Part shown: one piece after another, positions 227 through 11,515 of the stretch
Position numbering within the stretch: the first letter of the stretch is position 1
How the letters are laid out: every line of letters starts with the position of its first letter
Notes under the pieces: generated by a model
Told to the model about the DNA's origin: nothing
What the model saw: the letters and a program-made list of their open reading frames with translations, nothing else
Database searches by the model: none
Assembly (NCBI RefSeq): GCF_025995175.1
Contig: NZ_BAPV01000043.1
Coordinates: forward strand, 1 to 64,000
DNA from: Asaia krungthepensis NRIC 0535
GTDB taxonomy: Bacteria > Pseudomonadota > Alphaproteobacteria > Acetobacterales > Acetobacteraceae
Direction: 5' to 3'
Length of the DNA stretch: 64,000 nt
Program-made: the position numbers and the translations under genes

Positions 227-1102
227 TCATTCCATCAAGCCCTGAACAAAATCTGCAAATTGCCTTGCCTTTGCGGTCGTCATTCTCCCCGTAGGGAAGA
301 CAGCCCAAAGGTCGATATCAGGCAAAGACCACGCCGGAAGCAGGCGCGTTACGGCGCCGCTCTCCAGTTCAGGGGCAAACATCCAGTCCGAGGTGATGGT
401 CAGGCCCATATCAGCGAGTATGGCTGCCCGCAGGCCTTCGGCAGCGCTGACCCTGAGACGCCCCGCAACGGACACCGAGACGGCCGAGCCATCCCTGTGA
501 AATGACCAGACATTGGGGAGCTGACTGTAAACGATCGCGTTGTGATCAGCCAGATCGGCAGGAACCAACGGCATGCCCGCACGCGCCAGATAGGCCGGTG
601 TGGCGAGCACCGAACGTTTTCCTGTCGCCAGCTTGCGTGCGACCGCCGAGGAGTCGGCCAAAGCCCCCATACGCAACGAGATATCGACCCCCTCGGCCAC
701 GAGATCGATCATCCGGTCATCAAGCAGAATATCCACATCGAGCTGCGGATGCGCATCGAGAAATGCCGGTAGCCGCGGTATGATGTGCAATCGTGCAAAT
801 GTCGTCGCCGCCGATACACGCAAACGCCCGGACAGACCGCTCCCCGCACCACGCGCGGCCAGCTCCGCTTCGTCGGCTTCCTGAAGCGCATTGCGTGCGC
901 GTTCATAATATGCCTGCCCTGCTTCGGTGGGTGTAAGGCCATGAGTGGAGCGTATGAGCAGGCTGACCTGCAGCCTCGCTTCGAGCTGTGCCACGATTTT
1001 CGACACAGCGGGCTGACCAACATGAAGCTGCCGTGCCGCTGCTGAGAATGAACCCGTTTCGACCACACGTACGAACGTGGTCATCGCCTGATATCGGTCC
1101 AT
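227..1102 (-). CDS. LysR-family transcriptional regulator
   Basis: A 291-residue protein of normal LysR length. The N-terminal winged helix-turn-helix occupies about residues 1-60 (FSAAARQLHVGQPAVSKIVAQLE), followed by a linker helix and a periplasmic-binding-like effector domain from about residue 90. A good Shine-Dalgarno (GGAGGA) lies seven to eight bases before the ATG. It is divergent from the GST-OYE detoxification cluster starting at 1375, with a 272-bp shared upstream region, so control of that cluster is the natural inference. The effector is unknown, possibly an electrophile or quinone-like compound. Confidence 0.9.
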   Translation of the reverse strand: MDRYQAMTTFVRVVETGSFSAAARQLHVGQPAVSKIVAQLEARLQVSLLIRSTHGLTPTEAGQAYYERARNALQEADEAELAARGAGSGLSGRLRVSAATTFARLHIIPRLPAFLDAHPQLDVDILLDDRMIDLVAEGVDISLRMGALADSSAVARKLATGKRSVLATPAYLARAGMPLVPADLADHNAIVYSQLPNVWSFHRDGSAVSVSVAGRLRVSAAEGLRAAILADMGLTITSDWMFAPELESGAVTRLLPAWSLPDIDLWAVFPTGRMTTAKARQFADFVQGLME

Positions 1103-1374
1103 CCTATTCCTCCCGGGAATGATGCTTATCGCATTGAGCCATCTGCCATGCCCAGTGAAACAGAGGCAAACCAGACCTGCAACCCGGTCAGCGTCGGGGA
1201 AAGATGGAGCAGGCTTCAGGATGATCGTTCATTTCACCAACGCCGTATCAACACGACCGGTGTCGCATTTCATCTCGGCCTATCAGCTCACGGGTGACCT
1301 GCCACAAGCCATGGTCGCCGCCCTCCTCCCGGCGCTCTCCGCTCTCCTTGCAAAACCTGATGGAGGAACCGCTC

Positions 1375-2010
1375 ATGATTGAGGTCTACGCTTTCGCGAC
1401 GCCCAACAGCGTCAAGGTCACCATCGCGCTGGAAGAGCTCGATCTCGCCTATAGGCTACACGGCATCAATATCCGGCAAGGCGAACAGGGTACCACGGCC
1501 TTTACGACGCTTAATCCCAACCAGAAGGTTCCGGTACTGGTCGATCACGACGCGAGGGATGAGAAGCTCGTCCTCACAGAGTCTGCAGCCATACTCGTGT
1601 ACCTGGCTGAAAAAACCGGCCGACTTCTCCCTGCAACCGGGGCCGAACGGGCGCGCGTTTTCGAGCAGCTTTTCTTTCACGCCTCTGCCCTGAGCCCCGC
1701 CTTCGGCCAATCGGGTTTCTTCCAGCGTTTCGCCAGCGAGAAACTGCCTCTCGCGATCGAGCGCTTCGACAAAGAGGCAAAACGCGTCCTGCATGTGCTC
1801 GACACCTTGCTGGCGCACCGGGATTTCGTGGCAGGCGATCATTTTACTATCGCCGATATTGCCCATTTCGGTTGGCTCTGGCGGCGCAGTTTTCCCGGCC
1901 TCACCCTCGATGACACCCCTTATATCGCCCGCTGGTACGAGCGGATTGCGGCCAGACCTGGCGTTCAGCGCGGTATCGCCCGGGTTGAGACGCTCGCCGC
2001 CCCAAACTGA
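1375..2010 (+). CDS. Glutathione S-transferase family protein
   Basis: A 211-residue GST. The thioredoxin-like N-terminal domain (MIEVYAFATPNSVKVTIALEE) carries the cis-proline region NPNQKVPVLVD and the glutathione-binding E-S pair in LTESAAILVYLAE; an all-helical C-terminal domain contains the N-capping motif FTIADIAHFGW. The start was set at 1375 because GGAGG lies eight bases upstream; the open frame extends upstream without an RBS. First gene of a same-strand cluster divergent from the LysR gene, 30 bp before the ene-reductase. Likely conjugates or reduces electrophiles with glutathione; substrate unknown. Confidence 0.9.
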   Translation: MIEVYAFATPNSVKVTIALEELDLAYRLHGINIRQGEQGTTAFTTLNPNQKVPVLVDHDARDEKLVLTESAAILVYLAEKTGRLLPATGAERARVFEQLFFHASALSPAFGQSGFFQRFASEKLPLAIERFDKEAKRVLHVLDTLLAHRDFVAGDHFTIADIAHFGWLWRRSFPGLTLDDTPYIARWYERIAARPGVQRGIARVETLAAPN

Positions 2011-2040
2011 TCCTTTGCTGATCGCTCTGAGGTTATTCCC

Positions 2041-3144
2041 ATGAACAAACTCTTCACGCCCTTCAATGCCGGGGCGCTGTCGCTCGGCCACAGAATCGTC
2101 ATGGCACCCCTCACGCGCATGCGGTCGGACCATACTGGCAAGGCCAATGCCCTCATGGCGCTGTATTACAGCCAGCGCAGCTCACCCGGCGGTCTTATCA
2201 TCTCAGAGGCAACTCCCGTTGCGCTCGAAGGATACGGCTATGCCGGCGCGCCGGGCATCTATGACGACTCCCAGATAGACGGGTGGCGCAAGGTGACCGA
2301 AGCCGTTCATGCACGCGGTGCGAAAATTATCATGCAGTTGTGGCACGTTGGGCGACAGTCGCATCCTGATCTGCAGCCAGGTGGTGCAGCCCCGGTCGCG
2401 CCCTCTGCTATCCAGGCGGAAGGCGACGCCTACACGCTCGGTGGCCCTGCCCCGTTTTCCATGCCGCGTGCCCTTTCGCTGAAGGAAATTCCTGCGGTGA
2501 TCGAGCAGTTCAGGGAAGGTGCCGCAAGGGCAAAGCAGGCAGGTTTTGATGGCGTGGAAATTCATGGCGCCAATGGCTATCTGCCAGACCAATTCCTGCA
2601 GGACGGTACCAACCACCGCACCGATGAGTATGGTGGCCCGATCGAGAACCGCGCTCGCTTTCTGTTGGAAGTGACCCAGGCAGTCATATCCGTCTGGGGG
2701 GCAGACCGCGTGGGTGTTCGCCTGAGCCCAAGTGGCACCTACGGCTCGATGTCAGACAGCAACCCCCAAGAAACCTTCGGTTATGTGGCGGAGCAGCTGG
2801 ACAGGCTCGGCATCGCCTATCTGCATGTGGTTGAACCCCGCATCAAGGGCACGGAACTCATCGCCGAAAGCGAGCCCGTGGCCGCGCGTAATCTGCGTGA
2901 GAGATTTCAGGGCACGCTGATCGCGGCAGGTGGGTTCGACAAAAACAGTGCCGCAGCCGTGCTCGCATCCGGTGATGCCGATGCCGTCGCCTTCGGCCGG
3001 CATTTCATCAGCAATCCCGATCTGCCTCAGCGCCTGCGCGAGGACCTTGCTTTGACAGATTACGACCGCTCGACCTTCTACGGCGGCGATGCTCGTGGCT
3101 ACACCGATTATCCCTTCTTCGACGCTTCGACAGCAGAGCGATAA
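2041..3144 (+). CDS. Old Yellow Enzyme family alkene reductase (FMN)
   Basis: A 367-residue TIM-barrel flavoprotein of normal length. HGANGYL contains the substrate-binding His175 and Asn178 and the proton-donor Tyr180 typical of OYE/NemA/xenobiotic reductases. Other family segments are MAPLTRMRS at the flavin site, QLWHVGR, and the C-terminal phosphate-binding region around FGRHFISNPDLP. Such enzymes reduce activated C=C bonds, nitro compounds and quinones with NAD(P)H. It lies between a GST and a peroxiredoxin-like gene, which fits electrophile detoxification. The exact subfamily (NemA versus XenA/B) was not determined. Confidence 0.93.
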   Translation: MNKLFTPFNAGALSLGHRIVMAPLTRMRSDHTGKANALMALYYSQRSSPGGLIISEATPVALEGYGYAGAPGIYDDSQIDGWRKVTEAVHARGAKIIMQLWHVGRQSHPDLQPGGAAPVAPSAIQAEGDAYTLGGPAPFSMPRALSLKEIPAVIEQFREGAARAKQAGFDGVEIHGANGYLPDQFLQDGTNHRTDEYGGPIENRARFLLEVTQAVISVWGADRVGVRLSPSGTYGSMSDSNPQETFGYVAEQLDRLGIAYLHVVEPRIKGTELIAESEPVAARNLRERFQGTLIAAGGFDKNSAAAVLASGDADAVAFGRHFISNPDLPQRLREDLALTDYDRSTFYGGDARGYTDYPFFDASTAER

Positions 3145-3256
3145 CCACCGCGGTTATTCCACCAGGGAATGACCATTAGTCGCCCCTGCCATCATCCCCC
3201 AGGTACGGCGACCTCCTATCGTCAGATCCGTCACCAGATTTCAAGGAAACGAACCC

Positions 3257-3931
3257 ATGACACTTCAGGCAAAGCTCGACGCCTTCAAGACCGATTTCGA
3301 AGCCGGAAAGCCCCCCTATAACGTTCCGCATAGCGTCATCGAAACCATGCACCGTGCCACCGCCGAGCTGGTTGCGTCCGGCGCTGCGGAAAAAGCCCTC
3401 AAAGCCGGAGACAAGGCACCCGTTTTTACGCTGAACGACCCCGAGGGTGACCCTGTCTCTTCTGCTGATCTTCTGGCCAAGGGGCCTTTGGTCATCAGCT
3501 TTTATCGCGGTGTGTGGTGCCCTTACTGCAACATGGAATTGCAGGCCCTCGAAGCGGCACTTCCCTCATTTCGTGAGCTTGGCGCCCATCTGATCGCGAT
3601 CTCCCCGCAAACTGCGGTGAACAGCCGAAAATCAGTCCGCCAGAATGAACTGCAATTTCCGATCCTGTCTGACACACATAATGACGTTGCCGCGCAGTTT
3701 GGCCTTCGCTTCACCCTGCCTGATTATCTGATTGAGCTTTACAAGAATCTCAAGAACGATCTGCCCGGTTTCAATGGTGACGACAGCTGGACGCTGCCTA
3801 TGCCTGGCCGCTTCGTCATTGGTCAGGACGGCGTCATTCTCTATGCCGAGGTCAACCCGGATTATACGCGTCGCCCGGAACCTGCCGACATGCTTCCTGC
3901 CCTGCGCCACGCGACCCAGTCGGCCGACTGA
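3257..3931 (+). CDS. Peroxiredoxin-like AhpC/TSA family protein
   Basis: A 224-residue thioredoxin-fold protein. An N-terminal helical extension of about 50 residues precedes the AhpC/TSA domain. The active site FYRGVWCPYCNMEL places two cysteines at 88 and 91 (CPYC), a redoxin-type variant rather than the classical peroxiredoxin PxxxTxxC, so thiol peroxidase or disulfide-reductase activity is inferred. No signal peptide, so cytosolic. It sits in the LysR-linked cluster between the ene-reductase and a CMD-family gene, consistent with organic hydroperoxide defence. Confidence 0.85.
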   Translation: MTLQAKLDAFKTDFEAGKPPYNVPHSVIETMHRATAELVASGAAEKALKAGDKAPVFTLNDPEGDPVSSADLLAKGPLVISFYRGVWCPYCNMELQALEAALPSFRELGAHLIAISPQTAVNSRKSVRQNELQFPILSDTHNDVAAQFGLRFTLPDYLIELYKNLKNDLPGFNGDDSWTLPMPGRFVIGQDGVILYAEVNPDYTRRPEPADMLPALRHATQSAD

Positions 3932-3998
3932 TCGCTCCATCCATACCGCCCCGGCTCGCGCAGGGGCGGAGTTTTTCACTGAGGATACGGAGAGAGAT

Positions 3999-4415
3999 AT
4001 GCGCTCCAATGACATGGGCAGTAGCTTCACACGCCATTTGATGGGTTACGAACAATCCGCCAAGCTCATCGCGGCATCACAGTCAGGAACTTTCGGCGCA
4101 GCCATAGCCGGGTATGCAGTCGATCATGTTTTCGAGGACATCTGGACACGTGAAGGGCTCGATCAGGCGCGTCGAAGTCTCATCACCATGACCGTCATGG
4201 TTGCGCTGCGCCAGCCCCACGAATTCGGCCTCCATATGGGTTTTGCGCTCGATCACGGTATGAAGCTGAAGGAAATAGAGGAGGCTCTGATACAGATGCT
4301 CCCTTATGTCGGCTTCCCCGCCATTTCCGGTGTCATGCCTGTCGCTGCGAAGATCATTGCTGAGCGTGGACTCGACAAAAGCGAAGAGTATGAAGGCCAT
4401 CGCGGTCTGCTCTGA
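3999..4415 (+). CDS. Carboxymuconolactone decarboxylase (CMD) family protein
   Basis: A 138-residue helical protein of the CMD/AhpD-like superfamily, with segments ARRSLITMTVMVAL, EFGLHMGFALDHGMKLKEIEEALIQ and YVGFPAISG typical of CMD proteins. No CxxC is present where AhpD has its catalytic pair, so it is closer to gamma-carboxymuconolactone decarboxylase or the small uncharacterised homologues found in stress clusters. The open frame begins far upstream, inside the preceding gene in another frame; ATG 3999 was chosen for its GGAGAGAG ribosome site. Its role in the cluster is not known. Confidence 0.85.
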   Translation: MRSNDMGSSFTRHLMGYEQSAKLIAASQSGTFGAAIAGYAVDHVFEDIWTREGLDQARRSLITMTVMVALRQPHEFGLHMGFALDHGMKLKEIEEALIQMLPYVGFPAISGVMPVAAKIIAERGLDKSEEYEGHRGLL

Positions 4416-4565
4416 GTCCTCACCCAAGTACTGTACCCTGCCGGTAGAACGGGCCTCGTCTCGCGCTCCCGATGACATCCAGCCTGCGGCGTTCACGAAC
4501 CTCTCTGCGCCCCTCTCGCGCTTCGTGAGTACTTCACGGCAATCTGCCTTCGAAAAGGAACAGTT

Positions 4566-5315
4566 ATGACGAAACTGCATCGAAAAACGGCCCTTGTGAC
4601 CGGAGGAAGCAGCGGGCTCGGGCTTGCCATCGCAACGCGTTTCATCGCTGAAGGCGCATTTGTCTATATCACCGGTCGGCGACAGGCCGAGCTTGAGCGG
4701 GCTGTAGCGGCATTGGGCAGTCAGGCCGCCTCTATACAGGCAGATGTCAGTCTTTCCGGCGATATCGAACGCATGGTGGAAAGGATACGGCGTGAACGTG
4801 GGGCTATCGATATCCTGGTCGCCAATGCCGGTATCGTTCTGCCTCAAACACTCGAACAGGCAACACAAGCCAATTACGATCGGACGTTCGATATCAACGT
4901 GAAAGGCCTGTATTTCACGATCAGCAAGGCACTTGGCCTGTTGCGGTCTGGCAGCTCAGTCATCCTTGTCTCATCCATCGCTGCCAATAAGGGTGTGCCT
5001 GGCTATGGCACATACAGCGCAAGCAAGGCTGCAATACGCAGCCTGTCCAGAACCTGGACGGCCGAACTGGTCGAACGCGGCATACGGATCAATACCCTCA
5101 GCCCCGGGCCGTTCGACACACCAATCATGGACAGTCAGGCCGATACGCCGGAAGGTGCCGAAGCCGTCAAGCGTCAATGGGCTGCAGCCGTGCCCATGAA
5201 GCGATTGGGGCGGCCAGAGGAACTTGCTGCGGCCGCGCTCTTTCTGGCTTCTGATGAAAGCAGTTATGTTGCAGGCATTGACCTCATTGTCGACGGAGGA
5301 GCGGCCGCGGTCTAG
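4566..5315 (+). CDS. Short-chain dehydrogenase/reductase (SDR)
   Basis: A 249-residue classical SDR. The Rossmann glycine motif TGGSSGLGLA starts near residue 12, NAG (ANAGIV) is near 90, the catalytic Ser lies in VSSIAA and the YxxxK motif in YGTYSASKA near 153. The C-terminus (SYVAGIDLIVDGGAAAV) is typical of the family. It probably reduces a carbonyl with NAD(P)H. It is part of the detoxification cluster, following the CMD gene after a 150-bp gap that could hold its own promoter. Substrate is not predictable. Confidence 0.92.
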   Translation: MTKLHRKTALVTGGSSGLGLAIATRFIAEGAFVYITGRRQAELERAVAALGSQAASIQADVSLSGDIERMVERIRRERGAIDILVANAGIVLPQTLEQATQANYDRTFDINVKGLYFTISKALGLLRSGSSVILVSSIAANKGVPGYGTYSASKAAIRSLSRTWTAELVERGIRINTLSPGPFDTPIMDSQADTPEGAEAVKRQWAAAVPMKRLGRPEELAAAALFLASDESSYVAGIDLIVDGGAAAV

Positions 5316-5421: not shown

Positions 5422-6138
5422 ATGATCCGTTTTTATTTCCATCCCACGCCCAACCCGGCGAAAATCGCCCTCACGCTCGAGGAAACCGGTTTGCCCTACG
5501 AGGCCATACCGGTCGATACCCGCAAGGGTGATCAGCATGACCCGGCGTTTCTCGCGATCAACCCCAATGGCAAGGTGCCTGCCATTATCGACACCAAAGG
5601 TCCTGCGGGCCCGGCAACACGCGTGTTCGATTCCAATGCAATATTGATCTATCTTGCTGAAAAAACCGGGCAATATCTCGGAACCCCCGCGGACCGGCCT
5701 GAATTGCTGTCATGGTTGATGTTTATCGCATCCGGGCTTGGGCCTTTTTCCGGTCAGGCCGTGCATTTTCAGCATGCAGCGCCCGCCGGGCTGGACTACG
5801 CCGTCAATCGGTACAGGCGCGAGGTCGAACGACATTACACAGTTCTCGACCAGCACCTCACGGACCGCCGTTACATCGTGGGTGATACTTTCACGATTGC
5901 CGATATGTCTGCCTGGGGCTGGCTGGAGCGTGCGCCCCGTGTGCTCAAGGAAGATTATCCGCTCGAGCGCTGGCCTGCACTTGCTCGCTTCATGCACGAC
6001 ATCAATGCCCGCCCGGCCGTGTCGCGCGTACAGGCGCTCATGAAGAGGCACGCATTCAAGACAGATATGGACGATCAGGCACAACGAGCCCTCTTCCCAT
6101 CCAATTTCCCTATCCACAATCGGGAGCAGCGCTCATGA
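5422..6138 (+). CDS. Glutathione S-transferase family protein
   Basis: A 238-residue GST with N-terminal thioredoxin fold (MIRFYFHPTPNPAKIALTLEETG), cis-Pro region NPNGKVPAIID and glutathione-contact segment FDSNAILIYLAEKTG. The C-terminal helical domain carries FTIADMSAWGW. It has a C-terminal extension of roughly 25 residues relative to the GST at 1375. RBS-like AAGGGTGAG precedes the ATG. Its stop overlaps the yghU start by four bases, so the two are translationally coupled and probably act on related substrates. Confidence 0.9.
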   Translation: MIRFYFHPTPNPAKIALTLEETGLPYEAIPVDTRKGDQHDPAFLAINPNGKVPAIIDTKGPAGPATRVFDSNAILIYLAEKTGQYLGTPADRPELLSWLMFIASGLGPFSGQAVHFQHAAPAGLDYAVNRYRREVERHYTVLDQHLTDRRYIVGDTFTIADMSAWGWLERAPRVLKEDYPLERWPALARFMHDINARPAVSRVQALMKRHAFKTDMDDQAQRALFPSNFPIHNREQRS

Positions 6139-7019
6139 CCGCTTCGGAAAACTATACACCGCCCAGCGTCTGGACATGGGACAAACAGAATGGCGGCAAA
6201 TTTGCCAGCACCAATCGCCCTGTCGCCGGGCCGACGCATGAAAAGAACCTCCCCGTAGGGCATCACCCGCTCCAGCTGTACTCACTGGGTACGCCCAATG
6301 GGGTAAAGGTGACGATCATGTTGGAGGAACTCCTGGCCCTGGGACATGAGGGGGCGGAATATGATGCCTGGCTGATCAATATAGGGGATGGCGATCAGTT
6401 CGGATCGGGCTTTACAGCCATCAACCCGAATTCCAAGATCCCGGCGCTGGTCGACCAAAGCGGGGGCACTCCCCTGCCCGTCTTCGAATCAGGATCGATC
6501 CTGCTTTATCTCGCCGAGAAATTCGCGGCATTTTTGCCTCGGGATGTTCCATCGCGTACGGCCTGTCTGAACTGGCTTTTCTGGCAGGTCGGCAGCGCAC
6601 CCTATCTCGGCGGCGGCTTTGGCCATTTCTATGCCTACGCCCCTGAGAAGATCGAATATGCAATCAACCGGTTTGCCATGGAGACCAAACGCCAGCTGGA
6701 CGTTCTCGACCGGCAGCTTGCCAGGCATAAATATATAGCAGGCGACACCTATACAATCGCCGATATGGCGATCTTTCCCTGGTATGGCGGCCTTGTTGAA
6801 GGCTGGCTCTATAATGATGCTGCACAGTTTCTGAGCGTTCAGGAGTATTCCCATGTGCAGGCGTGGTCAGCCCGGTTGCTCGAACGCCCTGCTGTCCAGC
6901 GGGGCCGAATGGTGAACAGGCTCTCAGGCCCGCTCTCTTTCCAGCTTCGCGAACGCCATGACAGCTCGGATTTCGAGCTTAGAACGCAGGACAAATTGCC
7001 GAAAGACAGCGCGATCTGA
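6135..7019 (+). CDS. yghU: YghU-like glutathione-dependent disulfide-bond oxidoreductase
   Basis: A 294-residue Nu-class GST, close to the 288 residues of E. coli YghU. It shows the family's N-terminal extension (YTPPSVWTWDKQNGGKFASTNRPVAGPTHE, listed here in part), the YSLGTPNGVKVTIMLEE thioredoxin-fold start, and the SGSILLYLAEKF glutathione site. These enzymes bind two glutathiones or GSSG and show disulfide reductase and organic peroxidase activity. It is the last gene of the LysR-linked cluster, coupled by ATGA to the preceding GST. Confidence 0.92.
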   Translation: MTASENYTPPSVWTWDKQNGGKFASTNRPVAGPTHEKNLPVGHHPLQLYSLGTPNGVKVTIMLEELLALGHEGAEYDAWLINIGDGDQFGSGFTAINPNSKIPALVDQSGGTPLPVFESGSILLYLAEKFAAFLPRDVPSRTACLNWLFWQVGSAPYLGGGFGHFYAYAPEKIEYAINRFAMETKRQLDVLDRQLARHKYIAGDTYTIADMAIFPWYGGLVEGWLYNDAAQFLSVQEYSHVQAWSARLLERPAVQRGRMVNRLSGPLSFQLRERHDSSDFELRTQDKLPKDSAI

Positions 7020-7067: not shown

Positions 7068-7712
7068 CTACCAGCGTATCAGCCACGGCAATACCAGACG
7101 CGTGCTGCAGGCCACCAGCGCACAGGCCAATGAATACCAGACGACGAGATAAAGCGGGTCATCAAAGGGGCAGGCAAGAGCAAAGACGAGCGCACCAAAA
7201 GCCGCGCCGGCAATGCCAGTGACCCACGCCGTTCCGCGCACATCAACCGGTGCGCCGCGGCGCACGATAACACCCAGCGCGAGGACAGCCGGCAGAGCTA
7301 GCTCTACGATCTTGCGTGCACAGACCATGCCGTGCGCCGGATCAAGCCTGAGCCATAAAACCTCTGGCCCAGCCTGAAGCGCATCCACAAGCCAGCCAAG
7401 GGCAAAAAGAACAAGAGCGGTCACGCCCAGCCAACGCAGCCCCTGCCGGGGCGAACGCGTTGGATCGAGCGAGACCAGCGCCGAAGCGCCGCCCAGCCCG
7501 ACGATCAGCAGCAGCCCGATTGCCTTCCACCAGAAGCTCATCATGTGCATGGCATGGGGCATGTCAGGGCGCATCAGGCCAAACCCGAGCACTGCACCAA
7601 TCTCGACCCCGGCGAGAACCGCGAGGGTCAAGGCATCGCGCCAGGGCGAGCGCCTCCGGACGGGGCGAAGATCGGTTACAAACTGCTCGATCAGGGGATC
7701 ATTCACCATCAT
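7068..7712 (-). CDS. nrsF: NrsF-family (DUF1109) membrane anti-sigma factor for SigF
   Basis: A 214-residue inner-membrane protein with about six hydrophobic segments and a short cytosolic N-terminus (MVNDPLIEQFVTDLRPVRR), matching the DUF1109/NrsF family that sequesters SigF-type ECF factors. Two well-placed cysteines, Cys131 (MVCARK) and Cys181 (ALACPFDDP), match the conserved pair reported to be needed for signalling in the Caulobacter homologue. The gene overlaps the end of sigF by 14 bp, with GGGAGG inside sigF as its ribosome site. Expected role: release SigF on oxidative or hypochlorite-type stress. Confidence 0.9.
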   Translation of the reverse strand: MMVNDPLIEQFVTDLRPVRRRSPWRDALTLAVLAGVEIGAVLGFGLMRPDMPHAMHMMSFWWKAIGLLLIVGLGGASALVSLDPTRSPRQGLRWLGVTALVLFALGWLVDALQAGPEVLWLRLDPAHGMVCARKIVELALPAVLALGVIVRRGAPVDVRGTAWVTGIAGAAFGALVFALACPFDDPLYLVVWYSLACALVACSTRLVLPWLIRW

Positions 7713-8229
7713 TGCCTCCCATCACCAGAGTGCTCATACGACTCAACCCACGATGGATATTGACCTTCACCAGCGTCGCGGATTGCCCTGTGCGACGTGC
7801 TGCCTCCTCTATGCTCAAACCCTGCAACTTCACCAACCTGATCGCTTCTGCTGGCCCCGGCTTCAACTGCGCCAGAAGCTTTTCCAGTGCATGAGCCGTG
7901 GTCACCTGTTCCTCGTGATCGCCCACAGCCACCGTCTCATCAAGCAGGGTCGTTTGTGTACGTCTCGCGGCCCGGAGGCGATCAATCCATTTGTAACGCG
8001 CAATGGCCGCAATCCACGGGCCGAATTTCTGGGAAGGATCGAAGGTGTGACGCTTCTCATGCACCGCCATAAGGGTGTCCTGCACGGCGTCATCGACCAT
8101 TGAGGGCGGCAGGCGTTTGAGGAAAAAACGGCGCAACCATGCCTGCGCCTCGCCCAGGACCAGGCGATAAGCCTGTGCATCTCCTGCTTGCGCGGCCTCC
8201 ATCCAACGGCTCCAATCCGCTTCTGTCAA
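7699..8229 (-). CDS. sigF: ECF RNA polymerase sigma factor SigF
   Basis: A 176-residue ECF sigma with only regions 2 and 4. Region 2 has DDAVQDTLMAVHEKRHTFDP and the -10-binding WIAAIARYKWIDRLR; region 4 is the helix-turn-helix LQGLSIEEAARRTGQSATLVKVNIHRGL. Pairing with an NrsF anti-sigma identifies the SigF group. The predicted start is TTG at 8229; an in-frame ATG nine codons later is an alternative. It is third in a minus-strand unit msrB-msrA-sigF-nrsF that begins with a SigF-type promoter, so autoregulation is likely. Confidence 0.9.
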   Translation of the reverse strand: MTEADWSRWMEAAQAGDAQAYRLVLGEAQAWLRRFFLKRLPPSMVDDAVQDTLMAVHEKRHTFDPSQKFGPWIAAIARYKWIDRLRAARRTQTTLLDETVAVGDHEEQVTTAHALEKLLAQLKPGPAEAIRLVKLQGLSIEEAARRTGQSATLVKVNIHRGLSRMSTLVMGGNDGE

Positions 8230-8259
8230 AAATCTGCTGCCTTCATGCGTGATCGGAGA

Positions 8260-9051
8260 TCATTTCCTACCGCTATCATTTGACATACGTAAAGACCCAG
8301 GCGCCGTAGAAAGTGCGAGGACTGGCTCTGTCCGCCAGCTTGCCGGAAAGCTGGCACGCAGTGCGTCCAGCCGCGGGGCATCATAGGTCTCGATGTAGAT
8401 ATTATGCGGATAACGCGCGGCAAAATTCTGATGCTCTCTTTCCGCCCCGGTAAACGCCTTGTCAGGCTGAACATGCGTTGCGATGGGCTGGGCAAAGATA
8501 TGGGCGGCATCAAGCTGCGCGATATAGGCCTCTGCCTCGCGCGCCTGTTGCGCTGTGCGCGTGAAGATGACGGATCGGTATTGCGGCCCCGTATCGGGGA
8601 ATTGCTGGTCGATCTGCGTCGGGTCCAGTGCCACGGTGAAGAATATCCGCATCAGCGTGCCAAAGCTGACGAGGGTGGGATCATACTCAACCTCAACCGA
8701 TTCCGCATGACCGGTATCGCCTTCGCTGACGCGTTCATACTGGGCCGTGTCACGCGCACCGCCGTCATATCCGGCTCGGGTGGCTGTGACGCCTCGCACA
8801 TGCTGGAATATGCTCTGCACCCCCCAGAAACACCCTCCCGCAAAAACGACGCTGGATGGGGTCATCCCCGGACGGGAATCATCGGGGGGGGCCGTCATCT
8901 GCCCGATGGGTTTGTCGTTACCGGTCTTTGCCACGATAACGGGCTCAGGCAGGGTCGGATAGGCAGACGCCCTTGAGGTAGCCTCGTGCAGAATTCCATA
9001 AAGGCTGAATGTGGCGAGCGCGACGCCAAGCACGTTTTTTCTGATCATCAT
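8260..9051 (-). CDS. msrA: Peptide methionine-S-sulfoxide reductase MsrA, exported
   Basis: A 263-residue protein. An N-terminal hydrophobic segment (VLGVALATFSLYGILHEA) looks like a signal peptide or anchor, and the MsrA domain starts near residue 65 with the catalytic GGCFWG, Cys74. Family segments GYDGGA, GHAESVEVEYDP and YRSVIF follow. It reduces the S epimer of methionine sulfoxide. The exported location is unusual compared with cytosolic MsrA and fits repair of periplasmic protein. It lies eight bases downstream of msrB and 30 bp before sigF in the same operon. Confidence 0.93.
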   Translation of the reverse strand: MMIRKNVLGVALATFSLYGILHEATSRASAYPTLPEPVIVAKTGNDKPIGQMTAPPDDSRPGMTPSSVVFAGGCFWGVQSIFQHVRGVTATRAGYDGGARDTAQYERVSEGDTGHAESVEVEYDPTLVSFGTLMRIFFTVALDPTQIDQQFPDTGPQYRSVIFTRTAQQAREAEAYIAQLDAAHIFAQPIATHVQPDKAFTGAEREHQNFAARYPHNIYIETYDAPRLDALRASFPASWRTEPVLALSTAPGSLRMSNDSGRK

Positions 9052-9059
9052 GCGAACTT

Positions 9060-9521
9060 TCAGACTGGCCTGAAGGTAAGGGCTGCGCCGTTCATGCAGT
9101 AGCGCAATCCGGTCGGTTGGGGACCGTCATCAAAGACATGGCCAAGATGACCACCGCATGTCGCGCACCGTACCTCCGTGCGCTCCATGCCAAGACTGTC
9201 ATCCCCACGCTCCTGAACAGCATGGGGCAGCGCTGCCGTGAAACTTGGCCAGCCTGTCCCGCTTTCGAACTTGCTGCGTGAGTCAAATGCCGGCGTTGCG
9301 CAGCCTGCGCAGGCAAACCGCCCCTGTCGGTGTTCGTTCAGGAGCGGGCTGGACCAGGGTGCCTCTGTGCCAGCCTCGCGCAGAATCTCGAATTGCTCCG
9401 GTGTGAGCAGGCGCCGCCATTCAGCAGCACTATGCGTCACGGGATAAGGTTCTGCGCCCCAGGCGCGGCCCGACAGAGCCAGACAGACTGAAGCAAGGCA
9501 GAATTGTCGACGCGATGTCAT
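9060..9521 (-). CDS. msrB: Peptide methionine-R-sulfoxide reductase MsrB, exported
   Basis: A 153-residue MsrB. The N-terminus MTSRRQFCLASVCLALSG resembles a Tat/Sec signal. Zinc-binding cysteines are at 71/74 (CAGC) and 119/122 (CATC), and the catalytic Cys142 lies in RYCMNG. The frame is open back to an ATG at 9548, but that start lies only seven bases from the promoter's -10 element, so 9521 with an AAGGG ribosome site was preferred. First gene of msrB-msrA-sigF-nrsF; reduces the R epimer, complementing MsrA. Confidence 0.93.
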   Translation of the reverse strand: MTSRRQFCLASVCLALSGRAWGAEPYPVTHSAAEWRRLLTPEQFEILREAGTEAPWSSPLLNEHRQGRFACAGCATPAFDSRSKFESGTGWPSFTAALPHAVQERGDDSLGMERTEVRCATCGGHLGHVFDDGPQPTGLRYCMNGAALTFRPV

Positions 9522-9555
9522 GAACTTCGCCCTTTTGCTGAATTTCACACCATCC

Positions 9556-9581
9556 TTCGTGCTGCACCGCGCAGAGGTTAC
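9556..9581 (-). promoter_or_regulatory. SigF-type promoter for msrB-msrA-sigF-nrsF
   Basis: Reading the minus strand, GTAACC (9581-9576) is followed after exactly 16 bases by CGAA (9559-9556), 35 bases before the chosen msrB ATG. This matches the GTAACC-N16-CGAA motif known for Caulobacter SigF (from memory). The same spacing occurs in two other promoters of this island. Confidence 0.8.
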
Positions 9582-9615
9582 GGGCAGTCACACCGTTTTT
9601 TTTTCAGCCCGTGCT

Positions 9616-9641
9616 GTAACTTTTAGGGGCCTGCGCACGAA
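9616..9641 (+). promoter_or_regulatory. SigF-type promoter for the YedZ/YedY-like pair
   Basis: GTAACT (9616-9621), 16 bases, CGAA (9638-9641), placed 44 bases before the ATG at 9685. It differs from the msrB promoter by one base in the -35 element and is arranged divergently from it within an 86-bp stretch. Confidence 0.78.
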
Positions 9642-9684
9642 GGAAGCTCTGCCAGCCTCCAGAAGACTCAGGGAACGAACTGCC

Positions 9685-10308
9685 ATGTCACGATCGCGAC
9701 GCGCGCCCGCACCGATCATACGCCTCACCCATTGGGCAGGCGCGCTTGCCATGCTCGTCATGATCGGTAGTGGCTGGCAGATCTACAACGCCTCCCCTAT
9801 CCTGCCTTTCGAATTCCCCGCTGCCATCACTCTTGGAGGCTGGCTTGGCGGCGGCATTGCCTGGCATTTTGCTGCCATGTGGGTGCTGATGGGGGCGGGG
9901 CTGGTTTACGTTGTGTATGGCGCCGCTAGCGGGCATTTTCGCAACGACCTGCGCCCCGCAGGACCGCGATCTGTGGTGAGGGATATTGGGCAGGCCCTGC
10001 GCCTGAAGCTCTCCCACAAGGCCGGGCACTACAACGCCGTGCAACGTGCGCTCTACACGGGCGTGCTTGTGGTGGCTGTGCTGACGGTCACGACGGGCCT
10101 TTCGATCTGGAAGCCCGTGCAACTTGGATGGCTGACCTGGTTGTTCGGAGGCTACGACATTGCCCGGTGCATCCATTTTGCCATGATGAGCCTGATTGTG
10201 GGCTTTCTTCTACTTCATGTCGCGCTTGCCCTGATGGTGCCTGCCACCTTGTGGGGCATGGTGTTCGGGCGACGCATGCCAGATAGCGACAAGGAGAGCG
10301 CATCATGA
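9685..10308 (+). CDS. YedZ-like cytochrome b561-type membrane subunit
   Basis: A 207-residue membrane protein with four main hydrophobic segments and candidate haem-ligating histidines (RLTHWAG, AWHFAAMW, HFAMMSL, LLHVALAL). It resembles the small b-type cytochromes paired with YedY-like molybdoenzymes (YedZ1 type). ATG 9685 was chosen because the upstream open frame crosses the promoter at 9616-9641. The final four bases overlap the following oxidoreductase gene (ATGA), indicating coupling. It probably passes quinol electrons to the periplasmic molybdoenzyme. Confidence 0.85.
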   Translation: MSRSRRAPAPIIRLTHWAGALAMLVMIGSGWQIYNASPILPFEFPAAITLGGWLGGGIAWHFAAMWVLMGAGLVYVVYGAASGHFRNDLRPAGPRSVVRDIGQALRLKLSHKAGHYNAVQRALYTGVLVVAVLTVTTGLSIWKPVQLGWLTWLFGGYDIARCIHFAMMSLIVGFLLLHVALALMVPATLWGMVFGRRMPDSDKESAS

Positions 10309-11054
10309 GCCCGCCGAAAATCGACCGCGCCGGTGTCGCGCCTGAGTTGCGCAAGCTCGAACGCAGGCTCTTCCTGCGGAACAGTCTTTCGCTTGGTGGG
10401 CTTTCCCTGCTGTCAGGCTGCGCACTGGACGATAATGCGTCGGTGGAACACGCCCTCAGCCTGATGTCACGTTTCACCGACCGGGTGCAGGCGCTTCTTT
10501 TCAGCCGTCAGCGCCTCGCAAGGGAATTTGACCCGTCACGCATCACACATCCCTTTCCATTCAATGCCTATTATGACGAGAGCGACGTAAGGCTCGTCGA
10601 GACTTCATCCTGGCGGCTGGAGGTGAGCGGGCTTGTTTCAGACAAGAGCCCCTGGTCGGTCGCCCGGTTTCGTACCCTGCCGCAGAAAAGGCAGATCACG
10701 CGACATATCTGCGTGGAGGGGTGGAGCGCTATCGGAGATTGGTCGGGGGTTCCGCTCTCTGTATTCCTGCAACATGTCGGGGCCGATCTGCGGGCAAAAT
10801 ATGTGAACTTCCGCTGTTTTGATGATTACAGCACGAGTATCGACATGGCGACGGCACTTCATCCGCAGACAATCATGGCGCTGGATTTCGGCGGGAACCC
10901 TCTCCCACCCGCCTATGGCGCCCCGATGAAGATCCGCATCCCTACAAAACTCGGCTATAAAAACCCGAAATATCTCGCCTCCATCGAGGTTACGAATCAT
11001 TTCCCGGGCGGATATTGGGAAGACCAGGGATATGACTGGTTCGGCGGTTCATAA
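10305..11054 (+). CDS. YedY1-like molybdopterin-dependent oxidoreductase, Tat-exported
   Basis: A 249-residue sulfite-oxidase-fold protein. The N-terminal RRLFLRNSLSLGGLSLLSGC looks like a Tat leader, possibly with a lipobox-like Cys39. The molybdenum-ligating cysteine is Cys136 in HICVEGWSAIGDWSG, followed by family segments YSTSIDMATAL, PPAYGAPMKI and GYKNPKYLA. It is shorter than E. coli MsrP (about 334 residues). Coupled to the cytochrome gene. In Azospira the related YedY1 is known to reduce methionine sulfoxide in a periplasmic methionine-rich peptide; the same role is inferred here. Confidence 0.88.
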   Translation: MSPPKIDRAGVAPELRKLERRLFLRNSLSLGGLSLLSGCALDDNASVEHALSLMSRFTDRVQALLFSRQRLAREFDPSRITHPFPFNAYYDESDVRLVETSSWRLEVSGLVSDKSPWSVARFRTLPQKRQITRHICVEGWSAIGDWSGVPLSVFLQHVGADLRAKYVNFRCFDDYSTSIDMATALHPQTIMALDFGGNPLPPAYGAPMKIRIPTKLGYKNPKYLASIEVTNHFPGGYWEDQGYDWFGGS

Positions 11055-11070
11055 AAAAGCACACAGGCAT

Positions 11071-11096
11071 GTAACCTGCGGCAAAGCTGAGGCGAA
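11071..11096 (+). promoter_or_regulatory. SigF-type promoter for the methionine-rich peptide gene
   Basis: GTAACC (11071-11076), 16 bases, CGAA (11093-11096), 65 bases before the ATG at 11162. Exact match to the motif upstream of msrB, giving the third copy within 1.6 kb. Confidence 0.8.
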
Positions 11097-11161
11097 AGAA
11101 AAGATATCGGAAGCTGGCGCGTCCATTTTCCGATCCTTTGAACCGATCCAGGAATGTAATC

Positions 11162-11515
11162 ATGTCTTTTCGTACACTCGCACTTGCCTGTGCCTTTTCT
11201 TCGACAATGCTGCTGGGAGCCCCTGCCTTCGCTCAGGACACCATGTCACAAGGGACGATGTCGCAGGGCGCTATGGCACATGACAGCATGTCCCACGGTG
11301 ACATGTCCTCCGACAGCATGAAGAAGCATGCCATGACGAAGGACGAAATGGCGCCCCACGGGTTGTCGAAGCAGTCCATGAGCAAGCATGGCAGCATGAT
11401 GAAGTCAGAGGGTATGGAAAAGAAGAACAAAATGGGCAGTGCGATGAAACACGACCCGATGGAACATGACGCGATGAGCAATGACTCGAAAGGCGCCATG
11501 GCAAAGCCGAACTGA
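11162..11515 (+). CDS. mrpX: Exported methionine-rich repeat peptide, MrpX-like
   Basis: A 117-residue precursor: a 24-residue Sec signal (MSFRTLALACAFSS... ending APAFA) and a 93-residue mature chain with 17 methionines and 7 histidines. Methionines recur about every five residues (DTM, QGTM, QGAM, HDSM, HGDM, SDSM, KHAM, KDEM). It is hydrophilic and probably disordered. This fits MXKDX-repeat / MrpX proteins, thought to act as sacrificial oxidant sinks recycled by methionine sulfoxide reductases. AGGA eight bases upstream supports the start at 11162 rather than 11138. Confidence 0.88.
   Translation: MSFRTLALACAFSSTMLLGAPAFAQDTMSQGTMSQGAMAHDSMSHGDMSSDSMKKHAMTKDEMAPHGLSKQSMSKHGSMMKSEGMEKKNKMGSAMKHDPMEHDAMSNDSKGAMAKPN

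Follow-up and report, generated by a model that had tools for sequence, protein, structure and literature searches.

A SigF/NrsF-type island in Asaia krungthepensis that combines predicted exported one-cysteine methionine sulfoxide reductases with a molybdoenzyme and a methionine-rich peptide

The occurrence of two predicted exported, thiol-dependent methionine sulfoxide reductases (Msr) in the operon of a sigma factor raises two questions: which stress they would counter, and what recharges them in the periplasm. The locus occupies positions 7068-11515 of the window, the stretch of 64,000 nucleotides from Asaia krungthepensis NRIC 0535 that was analyzed here. One strand harbors msrB-msrA-sigF-nrsF in this order; divergent from these, the opposite strand carries the genes of a cytochrome b561 and an MsrP-like molybdoenzyme (cytb-msrP), followed by mrpX. 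Families were assigned with Pfam and NCBIfam profiles, which matched all seven genes that a preliminary description had placed here, and export signals were judged by eye from the N-termini, not by a signal predictor.

The regulatory pair consists of nrsF (7068-7712, minus strand) and the ECF sigma factor gene sigF (7699-8229, minus strand; PF04542 and PF08281), which overlap by 14 bp; the TTG start of sigF stems from mechanical ORF calling. The anti-sigma factor NrsF exceeds the Pfam DUF1109/NrsF cut-off (PF06532, 127.5 versus 26.8 bits) and its gene adjoins an ECF sigma gene, as is typical of ECF16-type SigF/NrsF pairs. It belongs to the same family as the NCBIfam equivalog NF042994 (anti-sigma-F NrsF), at 61.9 bits against an equivalog cut-off of 300. 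NrsF is described in the literature as a protein with six transmembrane segments, and the Asaia protein contains Cys131 and Cys181, numbered as the conserved cysteine pair of Caulobacter NrsF. The SigF consensus of Caulobacter is GTAACC-N16-CGAA, supported by promoter-deletion tests (PMC3511200; cited, as are all publications given here by PMC number, from an extract). Exact GTAACY-N16-CGAA sites occur six times in the 3.5-Mb genome, three of them inside a 1.54-kb segment of the island and three elsewhere. Those of the island precede msrB (9556-9581, minus strand, for msrB-msrA-sigF-nrsF), the cytochrome gene (9616-9641, plus strand, for cytb-msrP) and mrpX (11071-11096, plus strand); the second reads GTAACT, the others GTAACC. 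A fourth SigF promoter lies before the gene of an exported DUF5666-like protein, and the strict sites C1:130583 and C61:32937 were rejected as promoters, both being located inside ORFs on the other strand. Only the strict form of the motif is informative, because a looser pattern was not enriched genome-wide (43 matches versus 112 for a reversed control).

The same gene set recurs in the family. The full seven-gene island was found in 11 of the 150 family genomes examined, and NrsF in 72 of them. Counts given here include near-duplicates: L071 equals L226, L206 has two copies, and L078, L080 and L081 share 93-97% identity with the window. All 11 island genomes keep the three SigF promoters, and in 10 of 10 relatives with the full island the motifs lie at the same three places as in the window and the gene order is conserved. 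The motifs also occupy these places in Gluconacetobacter dulcium (L146), and a plasmid of Kozakia baliensis carries the seven-gene island. For the other 61 NrsF-bearing genomes no full island was present in the stretch inspected, some of these being on short contigs; G049, below the Pfam cut-off, was left out of the NrsF locus comparison. At two loci (L072 and L073), a pair of nrsF genes flanks msrA, msrB, cytb and msrP, and nothing there matches the promoter pattern. The conserved promoters point to the SigF control that had been proposed earlier. They also bear on the idea that unrelated genes have come to lie together by chance: at a background of three sites per 3.5 Mb, the probability of at least three strict sites in 4.4 kb is about 9e-9, and the conservation of order and promoters across genera rules out a chance neighbourhood for practical purposes.

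The cytochrome b561-type membrane subunit (9685-10308, plus strand; PF01292, 75.7 bits) was assigned a revised ATG start at 9685; a longer ORF from 9520 would cross the promoter. The adjacent MsrP-like protein (10305-11054, plus strand) contains a PF00174 molybdopterin oxidoreductase domain (103.1 bits) with the Moco cysteine and is the sole PF00174 protein found in the genome. Its best match among solved structures is 1xdq (62.2 bits), which we take to be E. coli YedY. By eye, its N-terminus combines RRLFLRN with the lipobox LLSGC, suggesting a Tat lipoprotein. The lipobox cysteine and the Moco cysteine, the latter presumably the Moco ligand, are invariant in all 15 aligned sequences. The two proteins had been described as a YedZ/YedY-like pair. 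E. coli MsrP/MsrQ has the molybdopterin fold family in common with the island, but the island enzyme stays below the MsrP equivalog cut-off (NF003767, 89.1 versus 207 bits), is a lipoprotein by eye and is partnered by a PF01292 protein instead of one with PF01794. This ferric-reductase-like haem membrane domain, that of MsrQ (YedZ), was not matched by the membrane subunit. Judged by these profiles, the pair is not MsrPQ proper, and its membrane partner is a cytochrome b561, not MsrQ.

Downstream, mrpX (11162-11515, plus strand) encodes a predicted exported MXKDX peptide with 19 methionines in 117 amino acids, a Sec-type N-terminus and a TIGR02953 (penta_MxKDx) score of 63.8 bits at a cut-off of 41; it appears to be a peptide that would act as an oxidant sink. 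Beside other cytb-msrP pairs its place is occupied by relatives of the DUF5666-like protein, which has an invariant MTNG loop (L308, L318 and L171 represent one DUF5666-like sequence). A Foldseek search of a model of this protein against the PDB gave no match at an E-value of 0.001 or better, and a literature search for DUF5666 and molybdopterin gave none. The preliminary description had seen thiol and molybdoenzyme repair directed at one methionine-rich peptide, and the families for both predicted chemistries do lie beside MrpX. They could still have different clients, with the thiol enzymes serving envelope proteins generally and the molybdoenzyme alone recycling MrpX. Several cytb-msrP-mrpX loci (e.g. 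L149, L151 and L158) have no msrA or msrB in the stretch covered, so the molybdoenzyme may suffice there; in genome G001, however, msrB-msrA-sigF-nrsF lies opposite the gene of a methionine-rich exported peptide, with paired SigF motifs between them and cytb-msrP not adjacent. Such a division of labour is considered rather less likely than not. G001 was also considered as a thiol-only sink system, which was rejected as its cytb-msrP lies at a separate locus, beside a DUF5666-like gene.

A SigF/NrsF-MrpX-YedY1-YedZ1 system was reportedly described for Azospira suillum PS by Melnyk in mBio in 2015, and the likeness to it that had been pointed out holds. In Azospira, sigF, nrsF, mrpX and yedY1 were linked experimentally to reactive-chlorine resistance (PMC5748585), and the perchlorate islands of P. 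militaris MP and D. hydrogenophilus LT-1 combine sigF/nrsF/yedYZ/mrpX with predicted exported MsrA and MsrB (PMC4623255). An ECF sigma factor with NrsF, a methionine-rich peptide and a molybdoenzyme-type Msr with membrane subunit are common to these systems and the Asaia island; as a difference, msrB and msrA lead the sigF operon here. EcfF/OsrA of Bradyrhizobium, which controls Msr genes including one predicted to be periplasmic, shares the anti-sigma family, a GTAAC-type promoter and Msr genes in the regulon, but its genes are scattered, a DsbD-core protein and a thioredoxin are co-regulated, and MrpX and MsrP-like proteins go unmentioned in the extract (PMC3420878). In Brucella, BcrS/AbcS with BcrXQP is HOCl-inducible and was linked experimentally to HOCl resistance; an ECF sigma factor and an NrsF-type anti-sigma factor likewise stand beside a methionine-rich peptide and an MsrQP-like pair, but exported MsrA and MsrB are absent from the extracted description (PMC8315932). 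Neighbourhoods of chlorite dismutase are linked to DUF1109 anti-sigma, RCS-sensing sigma, MsrA, MsrB, GST, SDR, peroxiredoxin and LysR subfamilies, the point of resemblance to the present case (PMC9751292). OrhKR-controlled genes of UPEC share the cytochrome, the MsrP-like enzyme and the methionine-rich peptide, but are under two-component control, and thiol Msr are not mentioned in the extract (PMC8550376). The combination of exported Msr with a sigF set had been regarded as an addition of the present locus. This novelty is lost to the two perchlorate islands, to the exported Msr under EcfF and to the chlorite dismutase neighbourhoods, which list both Msr and SigF/NrsF-type regulators. A literature search for acetic acid bacteria with Msr and sigma factor did not return the island among the matches listed.

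These parallels do not all point to the same inducer. Caulobacter SigF responds to chromate and cadmium and its targets are not induced by generators of reactive oxygen (PMC3511200), so the inducer may differ from reactive chlorine, and in Bradyrhizobium both H2O2 and singlet oxygen induce ecfF (PMC3420878). The regulon could accordingly respond above all to metals or to thiol stress in general, but this is unlikely given that the msrA homologues of Caulobacter were unchanged in a sigF mutant (PMC3511200) and that regulons with MrpX and MsrP-like proteins are tied to HOCl in Azospira (PMC5748585) and Brucella (PMC8315932). From gene content and promoters, the island very probably represents a SigF/NrsF-switched periplasmic defence against methionine-attacking oxidants, with reactive chlorine as the most likely one. 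In such a system the NrsF cysteines would sense the oxidant, SigF would be released and the three promoters would fire. Exported MrpX would take the oxidation in place of vital proteins, and methionine sulfoxide in MrpX and envelope proteins would be reduced via two routes. The first would be the membrane-tethered MsrP-like molybdoenzyme, supplied with quinol electrons through the cytochrome b561; the second would be a stereospecific thiol pair, MsrA acting on S- and zinc MsrB on R-methionine sulfoxide.

The new element here is the absence of a resolving cysteine from the two exported Msr, the Msr of the perchlorate islands being compared by description. MsrA (8260-9051, minus strand; PF01625, 172.7 bits, above cut-off) has a Sec-type N-terminus and the catalytic cysteine of the GCFWG motif (C74 in GGCFWG), which is the only cysteine in all 263 amino acids; it is thus not a classical multi-cysteine MsrA, and the cytosolic MsrA of the same genome has four cysteines. 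MsrB (9060-9521, minus strand; PF01641, 159.6 bits), with a revised ATG start at 9521, begins with the Tat-type sequence MTSRRQF and shows the two CxxC motifs and the catalytic RYCMN (RYC[IM]N) of zinc MsrB. With C63 of Neisseria PilB as reference, its recycling position lies in SGTGWPSF and its mature part contains no additional cysteine, which separates it from two-cysteine MsrB. These N-termini support the earlier claim that both enzymes are exported. After removal of matches below 90 bits, the resolving cysteine was absent from 32 of 35 MsrA and 25 of 27 MsrB entries. Export of MsrA was surveyed in 48 alphaproteobacterial genomes with 57 loci, giving 58 entries as the window was entered twice. 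One-cysteine MsrA were confined to the window (twice), L287, L292 and L296; 25 of the 58 entries were judged on cysteine count only, after failure of the motif search, and all 25 have at least two. The SigF motif is absent at L287, and L292 has a CGTA variant only. The idea that export per se selects for one-cysteine MsrA was rejected, as 10 entries with a hydrophobic N-terminus hold at least two cysteines.

Since neither enzyme has a resolving cysteine, the sulfenic acid must meet an outside thiol directly. The reductant had been called unexplained by any gene seen; the question is a real one for these one-cysteine enzymes, but candidate donors are encoded elsewhere in the genome. They comprise glutathione synthesis (gshB; one cydC-type gene is also above cut-off), a full-length DsbD on contig C2 with N-terminal, transmembrane and thioredoxin domains, and three exported CxxC thioredoxin-fold proteins (L272, L273 and L274). 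The catalytic sulfenic acid would be reduced directly by periplasmic glutathione or by a DsbD-recharged thioredoxin-fold protein. Beside nrsF, and convergent with it, are genes for a YfcG-like GST-family protein (5422-6138, plus strand; NF010579, 168.9 bits at a cut-off of 332) and a YghU-type glutathione-dependent disulfide-bond oxidoreductase (6135-7019, plus strand; NF008731, 508.7 bits at a cut-off of 325). YfcG/YghU-type genes form conserved flanks beside nrsF or lie directly behind msrP; the strict SigF motif is absent at this neighbouring operon. Its CMD protein was rejected as an RcsA/AhpD enzyme, the CMD part being without cysteine by eye.

Recharging by DsbD-fed thioredoxin-fold proteins rather than glutathione, with the GST neighbours forming a separate electrophile-detoxification operon, has only slightly less than an even chance. 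Besides the DsbD and the CxxC proteins, it draws on Bradyrhizobium, where EcfF co-regulates the DsbD-core/thioredoxin pair with exported Msr and electron transfer by this route was proposed by the authors (PMC3420878), and on the reduction of the Neisseria PilB N-terminal domain by nDsbD in vitro (PMC6210582). The Msr domains of PilB, however, have two cysteines and pass on a disulfide, not a sulfenic acid (PMC6210582); no SigF motif was found within 19 kb around dsbD (L140); and the position of GST genes immediately after msrP in L176, L192 and L316, which represent three lineages, argues against an unrelated GST operon. A more far-reaching reading, put forward tentatively and on balance improbable, is that paired one-cysteine MsrA and Tat-exported one-cysteine zinc MsrB under SigF form a distinct exported class. 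Their sulfenic acid would pass to glutathione in the periplasm, YfcG/YghU-type glutathione oxidoreductases would close the cycle in the cytoplasm, and cytb-MsrP would work with exchangeable partners, MrpX or the DUF5666-like protein, possibly a dedicated substrate or oxidation sensor. Among the matches listed, the literature contained no periplasmic MsrA recycled by glutathione.

The reactive-chlorine methionine defence of perchlorate reducers and Brucella would thus be represented in acetic acid bacteria by a conserved and partly plasmid-borne island. The exchange of MrpX and DUF5666-like proteins beside cytb-msrP offers a concrete partner for an uncharacterised exported protein. The formerly vague question of how periplasmic thiol Msr are recharged becomes a sharp one, as both enzymes would leave a bare sulfenic acid.

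The gene island proposed in the preliminary description at window positions 7068-11515 was confirmed. It comprises closely spaced msrB, msrA, sigF and nrsF genes on the minus strand, with the msrB ATG at 9521. Divergent from them, the plus strand encodes a cytochrome b561 of 207 aa (cytb), an MsrP-like molybdoenzyme of 249 aa, whose gene overlaps that of the cytochrome, and, 107 bp past the molybdoenzyme gene, the Met-rich peptide MrpX (117 aa). NrsF retains Cys131 and Cys181, the two residues reported as important in Caulobacter in the section of PMC3511200 consulted. The strict SigF motif GTAACY-N16-CGAA stands upstream of msrB, the cytochrome gene and mrpX, with 34, 43 and 65 bp, respectively, between the end of the motif and the gene. 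Six exact sites occur in the whole genome: these three, one before the gene of an exported protein, and two inside ORFs of the opposite strand. The preliminary description had also proposed a search for this gene set in other Acetobacteraceae. Of 150 family genomes, 72 possess NrsF, and the neighbourhoods of all these except G049 were examined; the full seven-gene set was present in 11 of the 150, the Asaia krungthepensis genome included. The other full islands are loci L066, L067, L068, L070 (counted although its msrB and msrP frames are split), L071, L078, L080, L081, L084 and L110. All 11 islands, and likewise Gluconacetobacter dulcium (L146), share the positions of the three promoters and their N16 spacing; the letters within N16 vary between lineages. 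No match to the promoter pattern was found in L072 and L073, although msrB-msrA-cytb-msrP are present there between two nrsF genes. The island is real and conserved, and it is most likely a defence of methionine against reactive chlorine.

The whole island, together with yghU, GST and SDR genes, is also located on the Kozakia baliensis plasmid pKB14400_3 (L226), which suggests that it may have moved; the plasmid is typed as non-mobilizable. In Bordetella genomosp. 2 (L206:3367-11375), cytb-msrP-mrpX-msrB-msrA occurs twice in tandem with identical scores; the repeat is either genuine or due to the assembly. On an IncF conjugative plasmid of E. coli (L227, CP056274.1), two-component genes are accompanied by cytb and by an MsrP-like gene, whose product shares 62.9% identity with the window's molybdoenzyme over the matched part. 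The same kind of match was seen in 56 more plasmid records from E. coli, Shigella and Klebsiella among the matches listed.

The cytochrome and the molybdoenzyme had been described as a YedZ/YedY-like pair. However, the membrane subunit belongs to PF01292 and not to the MsrQ family, and with 89 bits the molybdoenzyme stays below the cut-off of 207 for the MsrP equivalog. The latter, the sole protein found in a genome search for PF00174, has an N-terminal twin-arginine motif and a lipobox, the cysteine of which is conserved in all 15 sequences aligned. Based on these features the pair is a sister type of MsrPQ, which may work in a similar way.

As the preliminary description had claimed, both MsrA and MsrB harbor export signals, judged by eye. 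The signal peptides of MsrB (9060-9521) and its relatives appear by eye to be of the twin-arginine type, fitting export after zinc loading, and each of the 22 rows of exported MsrB with a listed N-terminus has an RR pair in its signal region. MsrA contains a single cysteine in the whole protein, and mature MsrB contains four zinc cysteines, the catalytic one and no others; both are 1-Cys enzymes, lacking a resolving cysteine. The same pattern occurs in 32 of 35 MsrA and 25 of 27 MsrB rows of a wide set, the rows not being independent. Outside this pattern are the cytosolic MsrA of the Asaia krungthepensis genome (L141), an MsrA/MsrB pair that looks cytosolic (L091) and Desulfobulbus (L202), where MsrA and MsrB match within one frame. 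Among 48 alphaproteobacterial genomes, 44 of them with MsrA, 1-Cys MsrA was restricted to proteins with an export-like N-terminus. However, exported multi-Cys MsrA also occur (10 rows). This indicates that the 1-Cys trait is not a rule of export; it marks this subtype.

After catalysis a 1-Cys Msr would be left as a sulfenic acid and would therefore require reduction by an outside thiol. The preliminary description had seen no gene that explains this re-reduction, but candidate donors are encoded elsewhere in the genome: gshB, one CydC-type transporter gene over the cut-off, a full DsbD and exported CxxC thioredoxin-fold proteins (L272, L273, L274). CydDC exports glutathione. The genome-wide motif search found no strict SigF motif at the contig places of gshB, the CydC-type gene, dsbD or the CxxC proteins. 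Gene neighbourhoods are suggestive of recharging by glutathione, as YghU-type and/or YfcG-type GST genes lie beside nrsF in 10 of 11 full islands (all but L084; G009 is counted with its GST on a second contig piece, L139), and a GST gene immediately follows msrP in Methylobacterium (L192), a Beijerinckiaceae MAG (L176) and G001 (L316). However, none of these GSTs carries an export signal as judged by eye, and a strict SigF motif is lacking at the GST operon of the window, which makes the link indirect. Recharging through DsbD is at least as likely, because Bradyrhizobium co-regulates a DsbD-core/thioredoxin pair with an exported Msr, according to the part of PMC3420878 consulted. Window positions 227-5315 encode LysR, a GST, an old-yellow-enzyme (PF00724), an AhpC-type peroxiredoxin, a CMD protein and an SDR; with the GST and YghU genes that follow, these genes resemble an operon for electrophile/oxidant detoxification. 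Collinearity with L078, L080 and L081 at 93-97% extends over roughly the first 13.4 kb of the window.

The strict motif at G000:C5:107,502 on the minus strand ends 53 bp before the gene of an exported DUF5666-like protein of 229 aa with three MTNG motifs (L143:8735-9424, contig C5 of the same genome). This protein itself has no Pfam match; its Lichenicoccus relative (L162) matches DUF5666 over the cut-off and three other scanned relatives below it. Partners were surveyed in the best 80 of 585 confirmed cytb-msrP-type loci (L146-L225). A DUF5666-like relative is encoded directly upstream of cytb in 26 of these 80, a Met-rich peptide behind msrP in 42 by script, and neither by script in 13, some of which are contig ends or misses. 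Of these 13, L170, L175, L190, L192, L206, L209 and L217 do have an mrpX match. Both partners occur together only in L211, which has two cytb-msrP copies, one adjoined by the DUF5666-like gene and the other followed by the peptide. The mutual exclusion among these 80 loci gives a Fisher P of 5e-10, without correction for kinship of rows. All 31 rows have the MTNG motif, which in an AlphaFold model with a mean pLDDT of 80.4 lies within or next to a linker of low confidence joining two beta-rich halves. The DUF5666-like gene follows a strict SigF motif in the own genome, in Acidisoma (L171, also L318) and in G001 (L316), and a CGTA variant stands before it in Lichenicoccus (L162). None was found in 21 other loci tested, in L211, or in the short upstream stretches of L156, L207 and L307. 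L307, like the three genomes with the strict motif and like Lichenicoccus, belongs to the Acetobacteraceae, so the SigF link does not show in all cases. Judged from sequence, the DUF5666-like protein is a putative exchangeable partner of cytb-msrP in place of MrpX.

Among the matches listed from open-licence PMC, no paper dealt with the island in acetic acid bacteria or with the 1-Cys character of Msr enzymes linked to SigF. Asaia bogorensis is an acetic acid bacterium. Its released proteins include an MXKDX protein and an MsrB, as stated in an excerpt of PMC12502724. Exported MsrA and MsrB are not a new addition to the SigF system as had been proposed, since the part of PMC4623255 consulted already describes two perchlorate islands with additional msrA and msrB genes, whose products have predicted export signals and which are grouped functionally with sigF/nrsF/yedYZ/mrpX. 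Excerpts of two further papers report control by an ECF16 factor of Msr genes, one of them with a predicted periplasmic product (PMC3420878), and the same families around chlorite dismutase (PMC9751292). The parts that deserve a bench test are the 1-Cys MsrA/MsrB pair and the exchange between MrpX and the DUF5666-like protein.
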